A stretch of DNA of 16,170 nucleotides from an uncultured Roseovarius sp. (GTDB taxonomy: Bacteria > Pseudomonadota > Alphaproteobacteria > Rhodobacterales > Rhodobacteraceae): assembly GCA_934501475.1 (NCBI GenBank), contig CAKSUL010000042.1, positions 1 through 16,170 on the forward strand, read 5' to 3'. The notes beneath the pieces are model-generated. The model was not told the DNA's origin, did not search any database, and saw only the letters and a program-made list of their open reading frames with translations. The position numbers were made by a program, and so were the translations under genes. The stretch's first letter is position 1, and every line of letters begins with the position of its first letter. Shown here one piece after another: positions 3,873 through 10,441 of the stretch.

Positions 3873-4235
3873 TCATTCGCCCGCAGCACTTTCGCCCAGG
3901 GTGCTTTGCATCGCCGACAGGATCAGCATCAGCGCATCGGACTGGTTGCGCGTCATTTCTGACAGGCGCGCATGGGCCAGCAGGGGGGCCGGATCGTCGC
4001 GATATCCCAGCACGTCGTCGGCCGTCATGTCGGGGGCAAGGCGACAGGCCAGATCACTGTAGAAACGCTCGTTCAGATAGCCTGCCCAGCCTGCGATCTG
4101 CGGATCGCTGGCGGTGCTCAGCACCTCATGGATGGCAGCGCGCAGCGCGCTGTCGGGCGTCTCGCAGGGGGCGGCATGGGCCGGGATCGCGCCCATAATG
4201 GACATGAAAATCAGGCATTTGATCAGGTTGCGCAT
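3873..4235 (-). CDS. small secreted protein, unrecognised
   Basis: This is a 120-residue protein I cannot assign to a family. It begins with a Sec signal peptide (basic MRNLIK, hydrophobic core, AHA|A cleavage after residue 21). The mature part is about 99 residues, predicted helical and rich in Ala, Leu and acidic residues, with two cysteines (24 and 64) that could form a disulfide in the periplasm. No catalytic motif is evident. It lies 3 bases downstream of the preceding - strand gene and is surely cotranscribed with it, and it converges on the SCP2 gene. The signal peptide and base composition like the neighbours support a real gene; function is unknown. Confidence 0.7.
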   Translation of the reverse strand: MRNLIKCLIFMSIMGAIPAHAAPCETPDSALRAAIHEVLSTASDPQIAGWAGYLNERFYSDLACRLAPDMTADDVLGYRDDPAPLLAHARLSEMTRNQSDALMLILSAMQSTLGESAAGE

Positions 4236-4238
4236 CGC

Positions 4239-4817
4239 TCATGACTCCGGCTTGGGGGCGGTAAGGTTGGTCTGGACCTCATCGAGGTATTGGGCAAAGA
4301 AATCCTCGGCGCGGCCCGAGGATTGCACGATCTTGGAATAATAGGGGGTTTCGATCCGCTGCACGAAACCGGCGGCCTCCATCGCCTCGATCACGCGCCG
4401 CCCGGTCTCGGGGGAAAACAGCAGGATGGTCAGGCGCTGGATATCGGCCTGATCCAGCCCCGGCGTGGCGCTGACAAGATTGGCCTTTGCCTTGTGAATC
4501 TGGATGGCGCTGAAAATCCCGCGTTTGAGGCGCGGCACCTCAAGGCCCATCAGCTTGCGCCGCTCGGGCGTGTCGATCAGATCAGTGAGTTGACGGTTAT
4601 GGGTCAGGATATAGGTCTCAAGCCGGTCGGGGCGGGCGATCAGATCAAAGCTGCGCAGCAGGAAAAAGAACTCGGACAGCACGAAAACATTCTCGCTGCG
4701 CAGCTTTTGCAGCAGAGTGGGATCGGGGTTGCACGAGGCGAGACATAATTTGTTGTGGAATTCTGTCTTGGCTCGTCGCAAACTCTCGAGAATGCGTATG
4801 TGTGTGGTCTGTGTCAT
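4239..4817 (-). CDS. hypothetical cytosolic protein
   Basis: With the ATG at 4817 the protein has 192 residues; a TTG three codons upstream (4826) is an alternative start and neither has a strong ribosome-binding site. I do not recognise the family. It has no signal peptide or membrane span, is mostly helical with many Leu, Arg and Lys residues, and has segments such as ETGRRVIEAMEAAGFVQRI that could belong to a winged-helix-like DNA-binding fold, although no clear helix-turn-helix is visible. It is the first gene of a two-gene - strand unit that diverges from the secreted-protein cluster across a 158-base spacer. That makes a regulatory role possible but unproven. Confidence 0.7.
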   Translation of the reverse strand: MTQTTHIRILESLRRAKTEFHNKLCLASCNPDPTLLQKLRSENVFVLSEFFFLLRSFDLIARPDRLETYILTHNRQLTDLIDTPERRKLMGLEVPRLKRGIFSAIQIHKAKANLVSATPGLDQADIQRLTILLFSPETGRRVIEAMEAAGFVQRIETPYYSKIVQSSGRAEDFFAQYLDEVQTNLTAPKPES

Positions 4818-4907
4818 GTCTGCCAACAGAGTGGGGCCAGTTACAGGAGATGAAAATGCCTGCTAAAAATTAGTTGGGCAACCTGAAATCAGTATGGCCT
4901 GCCATGA

Positions 4908-4936
4908 TTGAGCGGCGTGGCCATTCCGTCTATCTT
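4908..4936 (+). promoter_or_regulatory. candidate sigma-70 promoter of the secreted-protein operon
   Basis: TTGAGC (4908-4913) and TATCTT (4931-4936) are separated by exactly 17 bases and each matches the consensus at 4 of 6 positions. Transcription would start near 4943, about 33 bases before the ATG of the first gene. The first transcribed bases overlap TTTTCCACA (4935-4943), one mismatch from a DnaA box. The surrounding 16 bases (4934-4949) match 14 of 16 positions of a segment in the uvrC leader (134-149). No other candidate of equal quality was seen in this divergent spacer. Confidence 0.4.
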
Positions 4937-4975: not shown

Positions 4976-5569
4976 ATGTTCGACGCCATCAAGATCACCG
5001 CCACCGCATTTCTGATTGCCGCCGCCCCGGCCGCCATGGCCGACACTGCCGGTCTGGACAGCTTTCGCGCCCTGACCGCCGTTGAGGTGGCCGAGGCCGA
5101 AATCACCGCCACGCTGAAGCCCGTGACCGTCGCCGATGAGGCCAGCGCCGCCAAGGGCGTGCTGAGCGCGGGTGACCGGGTCGCCTTTGAGATCGGCGGC
5201 GTCGAGGGGGCCAAGGTCTATATCCTCAACATGGATTCCGCCGGCACCATTCAGATGATCTATCCCAACCGCTTTGTCGAAGGCGGTGTGCCGCAGGTCG
5301 AGGACACGCTGATGGTGCCCGCCGAGGGCGACACCTATGAATTCGAGGTCAGCGGCGAGGGCGGCACCGAGGTGGTCAAGGTGATCGCGATCGACGGCGA
5401 CACCACCGCGTTCGAGGCGCTGGTTGCCGCGCTGTTCGACACCGAAAAGGCATTCCCGCGCGCCATTCAACCGGCCGAGAAGACGACACAGGACCTGGCG
5501 GACTTCTTTTCGGGCTCCGCAGCTTCGCAGATCCGCGAAGCCACACTGGAATATGTGATCGCCAAGTGA
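4976..5569 (+). CDS. secreted DUF4384-like protein
   Basis: This 197-residue protein begins with a signal peptide (cleavage after AMA, residue 22). A domain around residues 65-140 matches my knowledge of DUF4384: a strand-rich segment with 'YILNMDSAGTIQMIYPNRF', followed by a VPAEG turn and an EFEVSGEGG...KVIAI strand pair. The domain is found in bacterial surface and signalling proteins, often next to proteases or caspase-like enzymes, and its biochemical role is not known to me. There are no cysteines at all, unlike the second DUF4384-like protein of the cluster. The frame stays open upstream, but the ATG at 4976 with AAGG ten bases before it and an immediate signal peptide is the best start. 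It leads the operon; the OmpA-like gene follows after 37 bases. Confidence 0.8.
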   Translation: MFDAIKITATAFLIAAAPAAMADTAGLDSFRALTAVEVAEAEITATLKPVTVADEASAAKGVLSAGDRVAFEIGGVEGAKVYILNMDSAGTIQMIYPNRFVEGGVPQVEDTLMVPAEGDTYEFEVSGEGGTEVVKVIAIDGDTTAFEALVAALFDTEKAFPRAIQPAEKTTQDLADFFSGSAASQIREATLEYVIAK

Positions 5570-5606
5570 TCGCGCGCGCCGCGCAAAGGCATTTGAAAGG
5601 GCTGAC

Positions 5607-6182
5607 ATGACGATACCCGCGTTCATCCGACGGCCCTTTTTGCCGGGCATGGCCTGCGCGATCATCCTCGCCGCGCTGTCCGTCCCGTCAGGCCCGGCCC
5701 ATGCCGAGGACTGCGCCGATCTTCCTTCCGTTCTGGGCGAGGGCGCGGATAAATCGCAGATCCGCTGCGCGCTGCGCGCGGCGCAACAGAAATCCATGAC
5801 GCGCGGCATCTCGATTGTCGAGACCGATGCCGCGGTCGAGGCGGTGTCCTTTGCGATCAATTTTGAGTTCGCAAGCGCCCGGATCACGCCCGCCTCGCAG
5901 ATGTTGCTGATGGCGGTGGCGCAGGTGATCGCCGAAGACGCGGATCTGCGCCGCGCGGCCTATTTCATCGACGGGCACACCGATGCCGTCGGGTCCGAGG
6001 CCGCCAACATGACGCTGGGACTGAAGCGCGCGCGTGCAACCGCCGAACAGTTGCAGGACGCGCTTGGGTTCGAGGTGACAATGAATGTGCGCAGCTATGG
6101 CGAAACCCGCCTGATCCAGCCGGATGCGCCCGAATCCGGCGAAAACCGCCGCGTCGAAATCACACCCGTTTCACTGGAGTAG
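5607..6182 (+). CDS. OmpA-C family peptidoglycan-binding protein
   Basis: This is a 191-residue exported protein (signal peptide ending in AHA, residue 33) without a beta-barrel. A short N-terminal part contains Cys36 and Cys54, probably a disulfide. An OmpA-C domain fills about residues 80-188: FEFASARIT, DGHTDAVGSEAAN, LGLKRARA, SYGE and ENRRVEI. Asp126 and Arg141 align with the pair that holds diaminopimelate of peptidoglycan in OmpA, so wall binding is expected. It is a soluble periplasmic wall-tethering protein unless held by a partner. The ATG is preceded by GAAAGG. The lipoprotein gene follows after 5 bases, suggesting that wall and membrane anchors are made together. Confidence 0.9.
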   Translation: MTIPAFIRRPFLPGMACAIILAALSVPSGPAHAEDCADLPSVLGEGADKSQIRCALRAAQQKSMTRGISIVETDAAVEAVSFAINFEFASARITPASQMLLMAVAQVIAEDADLRRAAYFIDGHTDAVGSEAANMTLGLKRARATAEQLQDALGFEVTMNVRSYGETRLIQPDAPESGENRRVEITPVSLE

Positions 6183-6187
6183 ATCAA

Positions 6188-6736
6188 ATGACGATGCCCC
6201 AACCCCGCTTTCCGTCCCGCCGCAGCGCCGCCACGGCTCTGGGCGCTGTGTCGCTGGCCCTGATCGTGGCGGGGTGCACCGATGGTGAACCGCAATCCAT
6301 GCGCGCCAATCCCACCCCGGCCGAGCAGGTCGTCACTGCCCAGCCCGCCCCGGCAACCCCGGCGGCGACCGCAACCAGGAAACCCGGCAAGACAAAGGCC
6401 GCGCAAACCATGACACGCAGACCCCCCGAGGCCCCGGCGCGGACCAACCTGGACCTGAATGTGAGCTATATGGTGCGTATCCTGGTCCCGGCGGGATCGG
6501 AGCTGAGCCTGCGCGCCCAGGGCGCGGGTGATGCGCCGCCCGCGTTGAAAACCGTCAAGATCGAGTCGGGCCCGCCCTATTCGGTCAGCCTGCCGGTGCA
6601 ATCCGGCGCTGCGGCCTATCCGATGGAGGTCACCGCCACGCTGACCTCAACCATCGGGCATGTCCTGAGCGGCGCCATCACGCTGAGCGCGCCGCCAACC
6701 GGCCCGGTGGAAATCACCATGAGTCCGCAGTCCTGA
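6188..6736 (+). CDS. lipoprotein with YbaY/YscW-like beta domain
   Basis: This is a 182-residue protein with a lipobox (IVAGC; lipidated Cys30). The residue after Cys is Thr, not Asp, so by the E. coli sorting rule it would go to the outer membrane. A low-complexity Pro/Ala/Thr linker spans about 41-86, and a compact beta-rich domain spans about 87-180. The line VRILVPAGSELSLRAQGAGD, then strands and a final VEIT, resembles the YbaY/YscW (type III secretion chaperone-like) lipoprotein domain of the form 'LPPGAVLxVxLxD'. That assignment is by eye and only moderate. Before the hydrophobic core is SRRSAA, a twin-arginine-like motif. ATG is chosen by GGAG eight bases upstream; Met3 is an alternative. 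Confidence 0.75.
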   Translation: MTMPQPRFPSRRSAATALGAVSLALIVAGCTDGEPQSMRANPTPAEQVVTAQPAPATPAATATRKPGKTKAAQTMTRRPPEAPARTNLDLNVSYMVRILVPAGSELSLRAQGAGDAPPALKTVKIESGPPYSVSLPVQSGAAAYPMEVTATLTSTIGHVLSGAITLSAPPTGPVEITMSPQS

Positions 6737-6766
6737 TCCTTGGCGCCGATATATGAAAGGTCCGTT

Positions 6767-7309
6767 ATGAAAACCAAGATGATTGCAATGCTTTGCGCCG
6801 GTTTGGCGACGGTGCCGATCACGGCAACCGCCCAGTGCATCGACGCCTTCATGACCGGGTTTGACGAATATGAGCAGGGGCAACTGAGCGCCAAGGCGTC
6901 CTTCCGGGTCAATGAATTGCTGGTCCTGTGCTTTACGCCTGCACATTCGGGTTTCGTGTCGGTCTTTGATGCGCCGATCGAGGGCGATTTTCAGCAGCTT
7001 TATCCAAATGCCCTGACCCATCCGGGCGGCGAAACCTATGCCCCCGTCGAGGCGGGCACGCAATATTGCTTTGGCGGGCGCGACAGCTTTCCGCTGTATC
7101 ATCCCCCCGAGGAGGGGATCGGACTGGGCAAGATCTCGATCGCGCTGACCAGCAAGGAGGAATTTCAGCTGGATGACAGCGACTATGCCATTCCGGGTCA
7201 GAAGGTGAACAGATCCACCATGAACCTGCATCTGAGCAACCATCAGAAATCAGCGGCCAAATGCTCGGCGCGTGACGTGACCTATCTTGATTACCGCATC
7301 ACCAATTGA
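6767..7309 (+). CDS. secreted cysteine-containing DUF4384-like protein
   Basis: This is a 180-residue protein with a signal peptide (ATA|Q, after residue 22). The mature protein follows the DUF4384 strand order: SFRVNELLVLCFTP, GFVSVFDAPIEGDFQQLYPN, YAPVEAGTQYCFG, then a GLGKISIALTSKEEF strand. The LYPN hallmark is at 78-81. Four mature cysteines (24, 55, 101, 166) imply two disulfides, so this is a periplasmic or extracellular variant quite diverged from the first DUF4384 gene. The start is the ATG at 6767 with GAAAGG six bases upstream; a TTG nine codons earlier lacks these features. The trypsin gene follows after 13 bases, so a partner or regulatory role for the protease is plausible but inferred. 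Confidence 0.75.
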   Translation: MKTKMIAMLCAGLATVPITATAQCIDAFMTGFDEYEQGQLSAKASFRVNELLVLCFTPAHSGFVSVFDAPIEGDFQQLYPNALTHPGGETYAPVEAGTQYCFGGRDSFPLYHPPEEGIGLGKISIALTSKEEFQLDDSDYAIPGQKVNRSTMNLHLSNHQKSAAKCSARDVTYLDYRITN

Positions 7310-7322
7310 TCGGAGAAGAGTG

Positions 7323-8171
7323 ATGAAGACCCTTGTTTCCAAGTTTCTGACCACGGCCGTGATGGTGATCGGCCTCGGGTCGGTGGCCGTGGCACAGGCG
7401 CAGATGGAATGCGTTGATCCCAAATCGGGTCAACCGGCGCTGCGCATCGTCAACGGGGACCGCGCCAAGCCCGGCGACTGGCCGTTCATCGTCGCGCTTT
7501 ATCATCAGGGGCAGGGGTTTCAGTATTGTGGCGGCTCGCTGATCAATCAGGAATGGGTTCTGACGGCGGCGCATTGCTGGCCCGGTGACAACGATCCGGC
7601 CAACACATCCGTTCATCGTGCGGCCAGCACCGGCGAACTGGAGCCCAGCGGGCGCGGCATCGACAGGCTGATCGTGCATCCGGGCTATGACGCGCAGGAT
7701 GCCAATGTGCATGACATCGCCCTGCTCAAGCTCAGCCAGCCGTTCGACATTCCCAACAGTCAGCTTGCCATCCTGCCCACCAAGGCGGTCGAGGCCAAGC
7801 TGGCGGCGGTGCGCACCTGTTCCGAAGTGGCCGGATGGGGCACGCTGGAATACGGCGCGACCAGCGGATCGCGCTATCTGATGTCGGTGGATGTGCGTCA
7901 GTTGGAGACCGAAGTCTGCCGTGCCAGCTATGGTGCCCAGATCCGCAGCGGCAATGGCCCGCATCTGTGCGCCGGGTTCAAGGAGGGCGGCAAGGACAGC
8001 TGCCAGGGCGATAGCGGCGGCCCGCTGATCGTGCGTGACGGGCCGACCGGGTTCTTGCAGGTTGGCGTGGTCAGTTTTGGCAAGGGCTGCGCCTGGGAGG
8101 GGTTTCCCGGTGTCTATGCGCGCGTGTCCGATCACCGCGACTGGATCTTTGAGACGATCGAGGCGAACTGA
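7323..8171 (+). CDS. secreted trypsin-family (S1A) serine protease zymogen
   Basis: This 282-residue protein consists of a signal peptide (to about residue 27), a short propeptide, and a full chymotrypsin-fold domain beginning at Ile42 (R41|IVNG, the classic activation cleavage). The triad is His84 (LTAAHC), Asp131 (HDIALLKL) and Ser231 (GDSGGP). Asp225, six residues before Ser231, is the S1-pocket Asp, and the pocket glycines are present (SFGKGC, PGVY), so cleavage after Arg/Lys is expected, including possible self-activation. Cys69-Cys85, Cys199-Cys216 and Cys227-Cys256 are standard pairs. Cys30 (propeptide) and Cys166 are left over and could tether the propeptide. The ATG is preceded by GGAGAAGAG. 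It acts in the periplasm or outside the cell. Confidence 0.95.
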   Translation: MKTLVSKFLTTAVMVIGLGSVAVAQAQMECVDPKSGQPALRIVNGDRAKPGDWPFIVALYHQGQGFQYCGGSLINQEWVLTAAHCWPGDNDPANTSVHRAASTGELEPSGRGIDRLIVHPGYDAQDANVHDIALLKLSQPFDIPNSQLAILPTKAVEAKLAAVRTCSEVAGWGTLEYGATSGSRYLMSVDVRQLETEVCRASYGAQIRSGNGPHLCAGFKEGGKDSCQGDSGGPLIVRDGPTGFLQVGVVSFGKGCAWEGFPGVYARVSDHRDWIFETIEAN

Positions 8172-8174
8172 TCC

Positions 8175-8828
8175 ATGCGTCCGGGGCTGGCATATCTGGG
8201 CGCGGCGCTGATCGGATCGGCGCTTGCCGGTGGGTCGGCGCAGGCCGGGTGCGCGGGTCCGTTCCAGTTTCCGGTCGAGGAAATGGAGCAAAGCGTGTTC
8301 CAGCAGATCCTGCTGGCCACCCGGGGCGAGCTTGAGCATTTCTTTGATTTTTCCTTCGCGGCCTTCTGCATGGACGAAGAGGAATACGGCGCCTATTATG
8401 ACGTGCAGGAAAATACGCTGGTTGTCGGGGCGCAGTTCTTTCTGGATATCGCCAACCCGCCGGGCAACATCAACCGCGCGATTGCGGTCATCGCCCATGA
8501 GGCCGCCCACGCCTTTCAGACCAAGCACGGGCTGCTGAACATGCTGGTCGAGACCAATCCGCATCGGGTGAAATGCATCGAGTTGCACGCCGATTTTCTG
8601 GCCGGGGGCTATATGGGCTGGCGGGCGCGGCAATATGATGTCGATGCCAACAACATGGCCGAGATGTTCTATACCCTGGGTGACGGGGCAACGGGAAATG
8701 ACGGCCATCACGGGTTGGGGCCCGAGAGGTTCCTGTCGTTCAGGCAGGGGTTTCTGACGGTGACGGAAGATGAGATAACACTTTCAAGTATGGGGATTGC
8801 ATATGTTTCTCAAGCGAAATGTGACTGA
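8175..8828 (+). CDS. secreted HExxH zinc-metallopeptidase-like protein
   Basis: This is a 217-residue protein with a signal peptide (AQA|G, after residue 24). The AVIAHEAAHAFQ helix gives His108, Glu109 and His112 of an HExxH zinc site. Downstream CIELHADFLAGGY (Glu136, Asp140) resembles the ELQADCxAG motif that supplies the third ligand in neutral zinc metallopeptidases of the YpfJ/PF04228 type. The final GHHGLGPERFLSFRQGF matches their HG-x2-x-R-x3-F-x2-G-F ending. The four cysteines at 26, 65, 134 and 216 may form disulfides. Substrate unknown; peptidase activity is inferred from the motifs only. The ATG is 3 bases after the protease stop with GAGG upstream, and the end overlaps the next gene by 26 bases. 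Confidence 0.82.
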   Translation: MRPGLAYLGAALIGSALAGGSAQAGCAGPFQFPVEEMEQSVFQQILLATRGELEHFFDFSFAAFCMDEEEYGAYYDVQENTLVVGAQFFLDIANPPGNINRAIAVIAHEAAHAFQTKHGLLNMLVETNPHRVKCIELHADFLAGGYMGWRARQYDVDANNMAEMFYTLGDGATGNDGHHGLGPERFLSFRQGFLTVTEDEITLSSMGIAYVSQAKCD

Positions 8829-9528
8829 ATTTCAACGCCTTGTCGCAGGCGCCGTGATGGCGTTTGCCATGCTGGCCGGCGCGCCCGCACTGGCGCAGCA
8901 ATTCAAGATGAACCTTGGTTGCCCGACATTGGGCAGCGCCAATATCGGCCAATACACGATTGATGAGCTGAACGACCTTTGCCACAACAACACCGGGGCC
9001 GGGACGGTCAGCAGCAGCGGCGGCGGCGGCACCCAGCCGGCGCAGCAGGAATTCTCGGCCGCCGAAAACGGTGCTGCGCTCAGCTGTGGGCAGCACAAGG
9101 CGCTGGCGGCCTTTGCGCGCATGAACCCCGGTTTCGTCGAGGGAACGACCTCGCAGGCGGTGGTGGATAAATATTGCGGCGGCAAACCCGACAATGCGCT
9201 GCCCGAGGGCAGTCAGGTCGGCGGCGATCTGCTGTCGGGGATCTTCCGGTTCGAGCGCGGCTATCACACCCAGTATTCCGGGGCCAAGGCGCGGATCTGT
9301 CAGCCCTATTATTCGGGCGATGTGTTCATTGACCGGGGTCGGGTGCAGTTCACCTCGGGGGGGCATACATGGAAGGGCACGATCGCCAATAATTCCTACA
9401 TCTCGATCACCCGCGACGGCGTGACGCCGCGCCCCAAGAACCACACGGTGATCAGCGGCCCGATGACCGATGCGGAGCTATATAACGGCTATTGCGGCAG
9501 CGGGTTCTTCCGCCTCTCAGCGAAATAG
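8803..9528 (+). CDS. secreted cysteine-rich protein, unrecognised
   Basis: I cannot place this 241-residue protein in a known family. After a signal peptide (ALA|Q, residue 31) come a short segment with Cys40 and Cys60, a Ser/Gly-rich linker (about 65-80), a helical stretch with Cys95 and Cys125, and a beta-rich domain (about 145-240) with Cys166 and Cys231. This last part, with Trp190 and alternating strands closing at YCGSGFF, resembles in layout small lipocalin/avidin-like periplasmic domains, but that is a weak visual impression. Six mature cysteines suggest one disulfide per part. The ATG at 8803 lies inside the end of the previous gene. A GTG at 8821 is in frame but would leave the signal peptide short of basic residues. 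It could be a substrate, inhibitor or binding partner of the neighbouring hydrolases. Confidence 0.75.
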   Translation: MFLKRNVTEFQRLVAGAVMAFAMLAGAPALAQQFKMNLGCPTLGSANIGQYTIDELNDLCHNNTGAGTVSSSGGGGTQPAQQEFSAAENGAALSCGQHKALAAFARMNPGFVEGTTSQAVVDKYCGGKPDNALPEGSQVGGDLLSGIFRFERGYHTQYSGAKARICQPYYSGDVFIDRGRVQFTSGGHTWKGTIANNSYISITRDGVTPRPKNHTVISGPMTDAELYNGYCGSGFFRLSAK

Positions 9529-9535
9529 GTGATTG

Positions 9536-10441
9536 ATGATCAAGTATCTGACGGGACTGGCCAAAGCGGTGGCCATCTGCGCGGCGGCCATCTTTGCGCT
9601 GAGCGGCGCGGTGGCCTACGCCCAGGGCAGTGAGGGCTGTCTGGCCGCCGCCGATCTGCGCGACAAGGACATTCACCGCCATGCCGGGGTGCTGGATGGC
9701 AACCCGGATCTGTGCCTGTCGGAATTCCAATTCGAAGAGAACGGCCTGAACTGGCAGTTGACGATCATCGCCAACACAAGGCATGAGGCGGGCCCGACGA
9801 TCTATCTGCTGCATGACAATGAGAATGCCGCCTTTGACACGGCGATCTACAGCCTGCTGAAATACGGCGGCAAGCTGATCGCGGTCGAGGCGGCGGACGG
9901 GCGCGAATTCAACGGCCAGGACCCCAACCGCAATTTCGGCATGACCAAACCCGATACCGCGTCCTGCACGCAGATGAAGCGCAAGCCGGCGCCGATCTTT
10001 ACCCAGATGATGATGGATCTGCGCAACCGTTCGCAGGGCTTTATCCTGACGATGCACAACAACGCCGATGGTCATACCGGCAACGGTGGCAGCGGCGGCA
10101 TCAGTGCCGCGCGCCAGAGTGCGGTCATGAAGGGGATGATGGCCCCCAATGGCGGCGACGAGGACGACGCGATCCTGCTGGCCGGCACCACCCCGTTCGA
10201 GCAGGACAGCCGCGCGAAAAAGGCGACTGAGTTCTTTCACAAATTGGGCATCAACGTGATCTATGAGCATGTCACCCCCGAACGCAACGATTGTTCGTTC
10301 TCGAACCATGTCGTGCTGAAGGGCATCGCGCCCTATTACAACATCGAAGCCGAGCACGGCCATGTCGCCCAGCAAAAACACATGCTGGATGCGATGATGA
10401 AATTTCACCGCATCAAGGTGCGCAATGCCGGGGTAAAGTGA
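9536..10441 (+). CDS. secreted M14-carboxypeptidase-like metallohydrolase
   Basis: This is a 301-residue protein with a signal peptide (AYA|Q, residue 29). The motif order matches the M14 / succinylglutamate-desuccinylase superfamily: LLHDNE gives the H-x2-E zinc pair (His93, Glu96), DPNRNF (129-134) is the N-R substrate-binding motif of carboxypeptidases, TMHNN gives the third zinc ligand His174, and a late Glu (271 or 273, in NIEAEHGH) may be the general base. Cysteines 35, 60, 144 and 253 could pair. A role in trimming peptides or amidated wall material is an inference; the substrate is unknown. The start is the ATG at 9536, seven bases after the previous stop; a TTG one codon earlier is less likely. 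It is the last gene of the cluster, abutting the convergent UbiH-like gene with no gap. Confidence 0.8.
   Translation: MIKYLTGLAKAVAICAAAIFALSGAVAYAQGSEGCLAAADLRDKDIHRHAGVLDGNPDLCLSEFQFEENGLNWQLTIIANTRHEAGPTIYLLHDNENAAFDTAIYSLLKYGGKLIAVEAADGREFNGQDPNRNFGMTKPDTASCTQMKRKPAPIFTQMMMDLRNRSQGFILTMHNNADGHTGNGGSGGISAARQSAVMKGMMAPNGGDEDDAILLAGTTPFEQDSRAKKATEFFHKLGINVIYEHVTPERNDCSFSNHVVLKGIAPYYNIEAEHGHVAQQKHMLDAMMKFHRIKVRNAGVK

Follow-up and report, generated by a model that had tools for sequence, protein, structure and literature searches.

The QC pseudo-orthocaspases of the Alphaproteobacteria, as the relevant sections of PMC6426788 describe them, unite an N-terminal trypsin, a C-terminal DUF4384 domain and a pseudo-caspase in a single chain, and the same sections hold that orthocaspases cut after positively charged residues. 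In the MoxR-vWA/VMAP conflict systems, which depend on nucleoside triphosphates (NTPs), trypsin and caspase exclude one another inside the cell (passages of PMC7159879), and among the M14 murein carboxypeptidases Csd4 cleaves gamma-D-Glu-mDAP (meso-diaminopimelate; portions of PMC4220969). Here we describe a locus in a 16,170-nucleotide stretch of DNA from an uncultured Roseovarius sp. (contig CAKSUL010000042.1; the whole stretch is called the window). Eight genes, labelled g1–g8 in their order on the plus strand (4976–10441), and two divergent genes upstream almost certainly constitute a conserved unit, for the most part inherited and lost together, whose promoter region is conserved as well. 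Their products point to a device for cutting proteins or wall peptides that works outside the inner membrane. A first-pass annotation, made from the letters of the window, had proposed a surface-tethered proteolytic module of exported proteins, a wall binder and a lipoprotein among them, that separates housekeeping genes as a block. That proposal is borne out, and the block is inherited as one unit, except that the block had been taken to begin at g1 and to count eight genes, whereas it holds ten.

A g8 profile searched against a collection of 84,980 species gave 100 relatives, the best 80 of which were kept as loci (L numbers; G numbers denote genomes). Genes g3–g8 follow one another in the same order in 8 of these 80 (L001–L006, L010 and L051), more often than by chance, so that the conserved co-occurrence suggested as a check by the first-pass annotation is indeed seen. 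Five of the eight (L002, L003, L004, L006 and L051) keep all of g1–g8 in order; L001 and L005 are without g1–g2, and L010, from Pseudoponticoccus, has this pair on the other strand, beyond g8. Nitratireductor (Phyllobacteriaceae), the source of L051, belongs to a different order from Roseovarius and possesses all ten genes. The orthologues are neither scattered nor confined to near-identical strains, because the trypsins (53–77%) and g6 proteins (57–79%) are together 53–79% identical to those of the window, the carriers are spread over a tree of the neighbouring UbiH-like gene, and Nitratireductor is among them. The named proteins most similar to g7 and g8 of the window come from Roseovarius and Pseudohalocynthiibacter. 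Cultured carriers include Roseovarius nubinhibens ISM, with g3–g8, and Roseovarius spongiae and Pseudohalocynthiibacter aestuariivivens, each with the full set of ten.

Presence and absence were counted in 84 genomes from the genus to which G004 belongs. Full-length matches to the upstream orphan gene, matches to g4 and strong matches to g6 occur in exactly the same 7 genomes, with weak or short orphan matches also in G449, G432, G477 and G457. The C-terminal domain (CTD) of g7 is found in these seven and, as a stop-containing fragment, in G457, and g8 in the seven plus G457, G480 (one TGA inside) and G295 (a 36-residue end). Since g1 is present in five of the seven carriers and also in G295 and G480, it is less tightly bound to the module. 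The downstream neighbour, a FAD monooxygenase gene (Pfam FAD_binding_3) that we take to be UbiH, is present in 81 of the 84, and in all Roseovarius-type genomes examined the module sits at one and the same place. At that site G457 (L160) retains g3, g8 and the last part of g7 and lacks g1, g2 and g4–g6, and G295 (L161) retains g1, g3 and the g8 end. A UbiH tree with 81 rows, one for the window and 80 for genomes, has the carriers in several places. The eight carriers require 4 changes, of which well-supported branches force at least 3; adding the remnants (11 rows) again gives 4, with at least 2 forced. The long branches of G001, G005, G006 and the window make these counts unsure. As this is a single gene tree standing proxy for the species tree, and parsimony alone cannot separate gain from loss, it is the remnants at the UbiH site that argue for repeated loss rather than mobility, and they suggest that the module may have been lost repeatedly in other genomes. 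In a family-wide sample the g7 CTD was found in at least 3 of 394 genomes.

The two divergent genes belong to the module. The nearer one encodes an orphan protein of 192 amino acids from its ATG (4239–4817, minus strand) with no export signal and no significant Pfam or PDB relative; a set of 5.8 billion proteins holds 26 clusters, that of the window among them, which match it at E up to 0.001, and it is a signature gene of the module. Behind it lies the gene for a small exported protein of 120 amino acids (3873–4235, minus strand), for which Pfam gives no family. Both stand ahead of the operon in L001–L006 and L051, where tblastn places the small gene at the same position; neither was seen in L010, whose contig starts just before g3. 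Between the orphan and g1, an alignment of the loci reveals three boxes on the plus strand, possible operators, at 4862–4874, 4881–4893 and 4901–4913 (the second and third located, to within a few bases, where a typed consensus matches best), spaced by 19 and 20 base pairs in seven of eight loci (the window, L001–L006 and L051; L005 is the exception). In a six-locus alignment 24 of 56 columns are invariant at 4860–4915, against 13 of 102 elsewhere. The third box overlaps the first hexamer of a promoter-like pair, TTGAGC-N17-TATCTT (4908–4936, plus strand), which across loci reads TTGAG[TC]-N17-TATCTT, with GATACT in L051, and is kept in seven of the eight including the window. The promoter that had been placed in front of g1 is thus half sustained: a general consensus scan of 6.1 kb found none there and did not list the pair, its single match, at 8371, comparing with 1.5 expected, but the conserved pair matches the consensus at 8 of 12 positions. 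The orphan is a candidate regulator of the module, an assignment we make tentatively.

The eight plus-strand genes are separated by 37, 5, 30, 13, 3, −26 and 7 bases, and each product begins with a hydrophobic stretch followed by small-residue sites according to a crude hydropathy script (no signal-peptide predictor), in which the n-region of g1 has a net charge of 0. Coordinates and script agree with the co-orientation, gaps and export-like N-termini given earlier, and the script supports export of g1–g8 as a prediction. The first product, g1 (4976–5569), is a DUF4384 protein (47.4 bits, Pfam gathering cut-off 27; 2e-12); the Cys-containing g4 (6767–7309), which had been counted as a second, is only weakly DUF4384-like and scores below that cut-off (20.6 bits). 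The wall-binding and lipoprotein assignments hold: g2 (5607–6182) carries an OmpA-C domain (55.7 bits, cut-off 27.2; 6.7e-15), a peptidoglycan-binding type, and g3 (6188–6736) has a lipobox-like VAGC and a conserved C-terminal half. For g3, g7 and g8 Pfam gives no family at E up to 1. In the rearranged L010, two g3-like segments (5598–5990 and 346–633), one in frame behind OmpA-C, lie near transposase-like open reading frames (ORFs; label read from sequence).

The catalytic residues of the proposed hydrolases are conserved. The trypsin g5 (7323–8171) scores 177.3 bits (Pfam Trypsin, cut-off 20.6), and H84, D131, S231, R41, I42 and D225 are invariant in 10 of 10 sequences, R41 and I42 bearing out its reading as a zymogen; it has what an S1 trypsin should have, with what we take to be the His-Asp-Ser triad, the Ile activation N-terminus and the S1 Asp. 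In L002 (6793–8587) and L163 (6520–8314) the trypsin gene is duplicated in tandem within the operon, the copies being 77% and 64% identical to g5. A putative metalloprotease, g6 (8175–8828), has HExxH (HEAAH, or HETAH in L051) and ELHAD in 9 of 9 sequences, with no Pfam family above its cut-off and a weak likeness to the YpfJ-type Zn_HExGHH family (NF050010; 24.1 bits, cut-off 250). A second, distant g6-like exported HExxH gene exists elsewhere (L210:5476–6783, L212:5488–6735, L213:5750–6998 and L214:5985–6740); the g6 profile finds copies in five of the seven operon genomes and none of the 77 others, and in L210, L212 and L213 its neighbours are an aroA-like gene, so named from its sequence, and a gene for a small exported protein.

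The last gene, g8 (9536–10441), encodes a hydrolase that is M14-like by predicted fold and residues but not by Pfam profile. The residues of the M14 motif list (HxxE, NR, His and Glu) occur in order in 79–81 of 81 family sequences, and the predicted structure has the M14 fold, its top Foldseek match being the cyanophycin dipeptide hydrolase CphZ (8eip) at a low TM-score. PF00246 does not match g8; searched against 11 genomes it found two other genes and no g8 locus, and hhalign aligned only the NRNF motif. The earlier M14-like call is kept on structure and residues, not on profile. In the Nitratireductor locus the gene at position 8 (L051:9365–10768) belongs to a different branch of the g8 family; it is 36% identical, against 57–67% for g4–g7 of that locus, as if a cousin may have replaced the original. 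Seven Xanthobacteraceae/Hyphomicrobiales-type relatives, which form one well-supported clade, precede FHA and VWA-FHA genes (L064–L067, L070, L071 and L073). Three distant relatives lie in Bdellovibrionota (L068, L072 and L074), without the module; they are the sole, weak pointer to predation in the first-pass list of roles (activation cascade, remodelling, predation, defence or scavenging), from which the proteolytic character itself has been upheld.

The protein that accompanies g8 differs between lineages. The Cys-rich g7 (8803–9528) ends in a beta-barrel-like domain, the CTD (about 9238–9516), and this domain occurs in 19 of the 80 g8 loci, where the ORF bearing it always (19 of 19) lies directly ahead of g8, ending at most 220 bases from the g8 ORF on the same strand. 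Eight of these loci have the domain within a trypsin module, eight on a caspase and three on another protein (of cytochrome-c type in L016, short in L018 and L078). All eight caspases have GHG and DACR motifs, and the four tested with Pfam (L012, L013, L014 and L034) match Peptidase_C14. With loci selected by their g8, adjacency is more to be expected here than in a free search. A less biased search for the domain across 19 whole genomes found one copy in 17, two within one protein in G017, and in G016 a second in a long protein with no g8 within the 3.3 kb seen; therefore the trypsin type and the caspase type do not occur together in any of the 19. The pairing of a protease with the M14-like enzyme is probable.

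Other g8 relatives stand beside wall-synthesis genes. A gene of one cluster, whose representative falls in the MurE subfamily (312 bits, cut-off 257), precedes g8 in 15 of the 80 loci, directly in 14 and two ORFs off in L053, with overlapping frames in 12 of the 15 (first possible starts). These g8 genes form two separate groups on the g8 tree, 12 of Chromatiaceae type, 10 of which have a lipobox-like motif, and 3 from Sulfurovum. In the three Sulfurovum genomes the g8-associated MurE is the only one over the cut-off; five genomes have a second, higher-scoring MurE elsewhere and seven have only the g8-associated one passing, several of these genomes being incomplete assemblies. MurE neighbours in two clades thus suggest that the g8 family acts on wall peptide, at least in the MurE-associated clades; that wall peptide is also the substrate in the window's lineage is possible, though we would not count on it.

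We infer substrate and role from these associations. The caspase-type partner and the MurE neighbours narrow the reading to the pairing of an M14-like enzyme with a protease directed at basic residues, and we favour, tentatively, a ten-gene envelope proteolysis module in which an Arg/Lys-specific protease and a dedicated M14-like partner act on envelope peptides. The orphan product would repress or activate the module through the three boxes, and the DUF4384, OmpA-C and lipoprotein parts would anchor the enzymes at the wall and outer membrane and might also sense or inhibit. The zymogen g5 would be cut after Arg41, and its Lys/Arg-specific activity would process g7, envelope proteins or both; the g7 end domain could pass this on to g8, or restrain it, and g8 would take off a basic or diamino residue at the end of a peptide, be it Arg, Lys or, in wall stem peptides, diaminopimelate. 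Relatives would have a secreted caspase with the same end domain in place of the trypsin module, and cleavage after basic residues would be kept.

Nutrient scavenging, in which the trypsin would cut outside proteins, the second metalloprotease assist and the M14-like enzyme trim C-terminal Lys/Arg, as in a digestive set, is rather unlikely: an endo- and an exopeptidase could fit each other, the N-termini are export-like and the accessory locus is frequently lost, but 0 of the 10 module genes match a transporter family in profile scans, the unit includes orphan proteins, OmpA-C and two DUF4384-like proteins, and a caspase beside the same partner genes in relatives would be unusual for digestion. 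A bolder form of envelope proteolysis also seems unlikely: a periplasmic switch in which trypsin or caspase, by lineage, would control M14-like wall-stem-peptide cutters through one shared beta-barrel domain. Its corollaries, that the M14-like family is new and, governed by a regulator specific to the module, cuts the bond that MurE makes, and that the switch is the outside-membrane counterpart of trypsin/caspase conflict systems, have a similarly slim claim.

Envelope conflict or self-destruction, with damage or attack switching on the protease and so releasing wall-cutting g8, would agree with the patchy presence, with the trypsin/caspase exclusion in the part of PMC7159879 on intracellular systems and with the single-chain arrangement in that of PMC6426788. 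Against it, PADLOC gives only shared-domain matches (g2 to MotB-like ZorB, best 2.4e-7; g5 to LmuA, 9e-4), g6 has no plasmid match and g8 no phage match, transposase-like ORFs were seen only beside the rearranged L010, and the site is fixed; we judge it quite improbable. Still less can be said for a maturation or export line in which the proteases process g7 as an otherwise structural surface protein: g7 is Cys-rich and its conserved end domain accompanies g8, but caspases and a cytochrome c protein have that domain as a fusion too, and a tethering or regulatory domain therefore fits better. A chance cluster without common function, for which the looser inheritance of g1 might speak, is hardly credible given co-inheritance, co-loss, the cis block and occurrence in another family.

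The unit is bounded by ThiS/MoaD-like, MoaE, SCP2, FAD monooxygenase, amidase and aminotransferase genes. It joins unexplained exported families (DUF4384-like, the orphan end domain and a Pfam-undetected M14-like family) in one co-inherited unit; trypsin or caspase by lineage beside the same partners offers a direct test of secreted bacterial caspase function, and the M14-like/MurE association in two clades points to a wall substrate open to assay.

Text searches of the literature turned up no paper that treats this set of genes, in keeping with the earlier remark that no named system of such a composition was known to the first-pass annotation. Like the QC pseudo-orthocaspases, so far as PMC6426788 treats them in the sections cited, the module links an intact-triad trypsin to DUF4384, but it does so in separate exported genes, with no caspase and with additional OmpA-C, HExxH and M14-like proteins; Pfam finds no Peptidase_C14 domain in the window's ten module proteins, which sets it apart from orthocaspase systems. 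With the MoxR-vWA/VMAP systems of PMC7159879, as sketched in the passages cited, it shares the interchange of trypsin and caspase beside a second hydrolase; those are NTP-dependent, whereas no NTPase family matches the ten genes, nine of which look exported, and Pfam finds neither MoxR ATPase nor vWA among the ten module and six flanking proteins scanned. CphZ resembles g8 as its best structural match, but g8 looks exported (we make no claim on the location of CphZ) and none of the ten is a cyanophycin gene. With the Csd4/M14 murein carboxypeptidases, within the portions of PMC4220969 cited, g8 has no common sequence profile, but it does have the predicted fold, and its relatives have the MurE neighbours, that liken the two.
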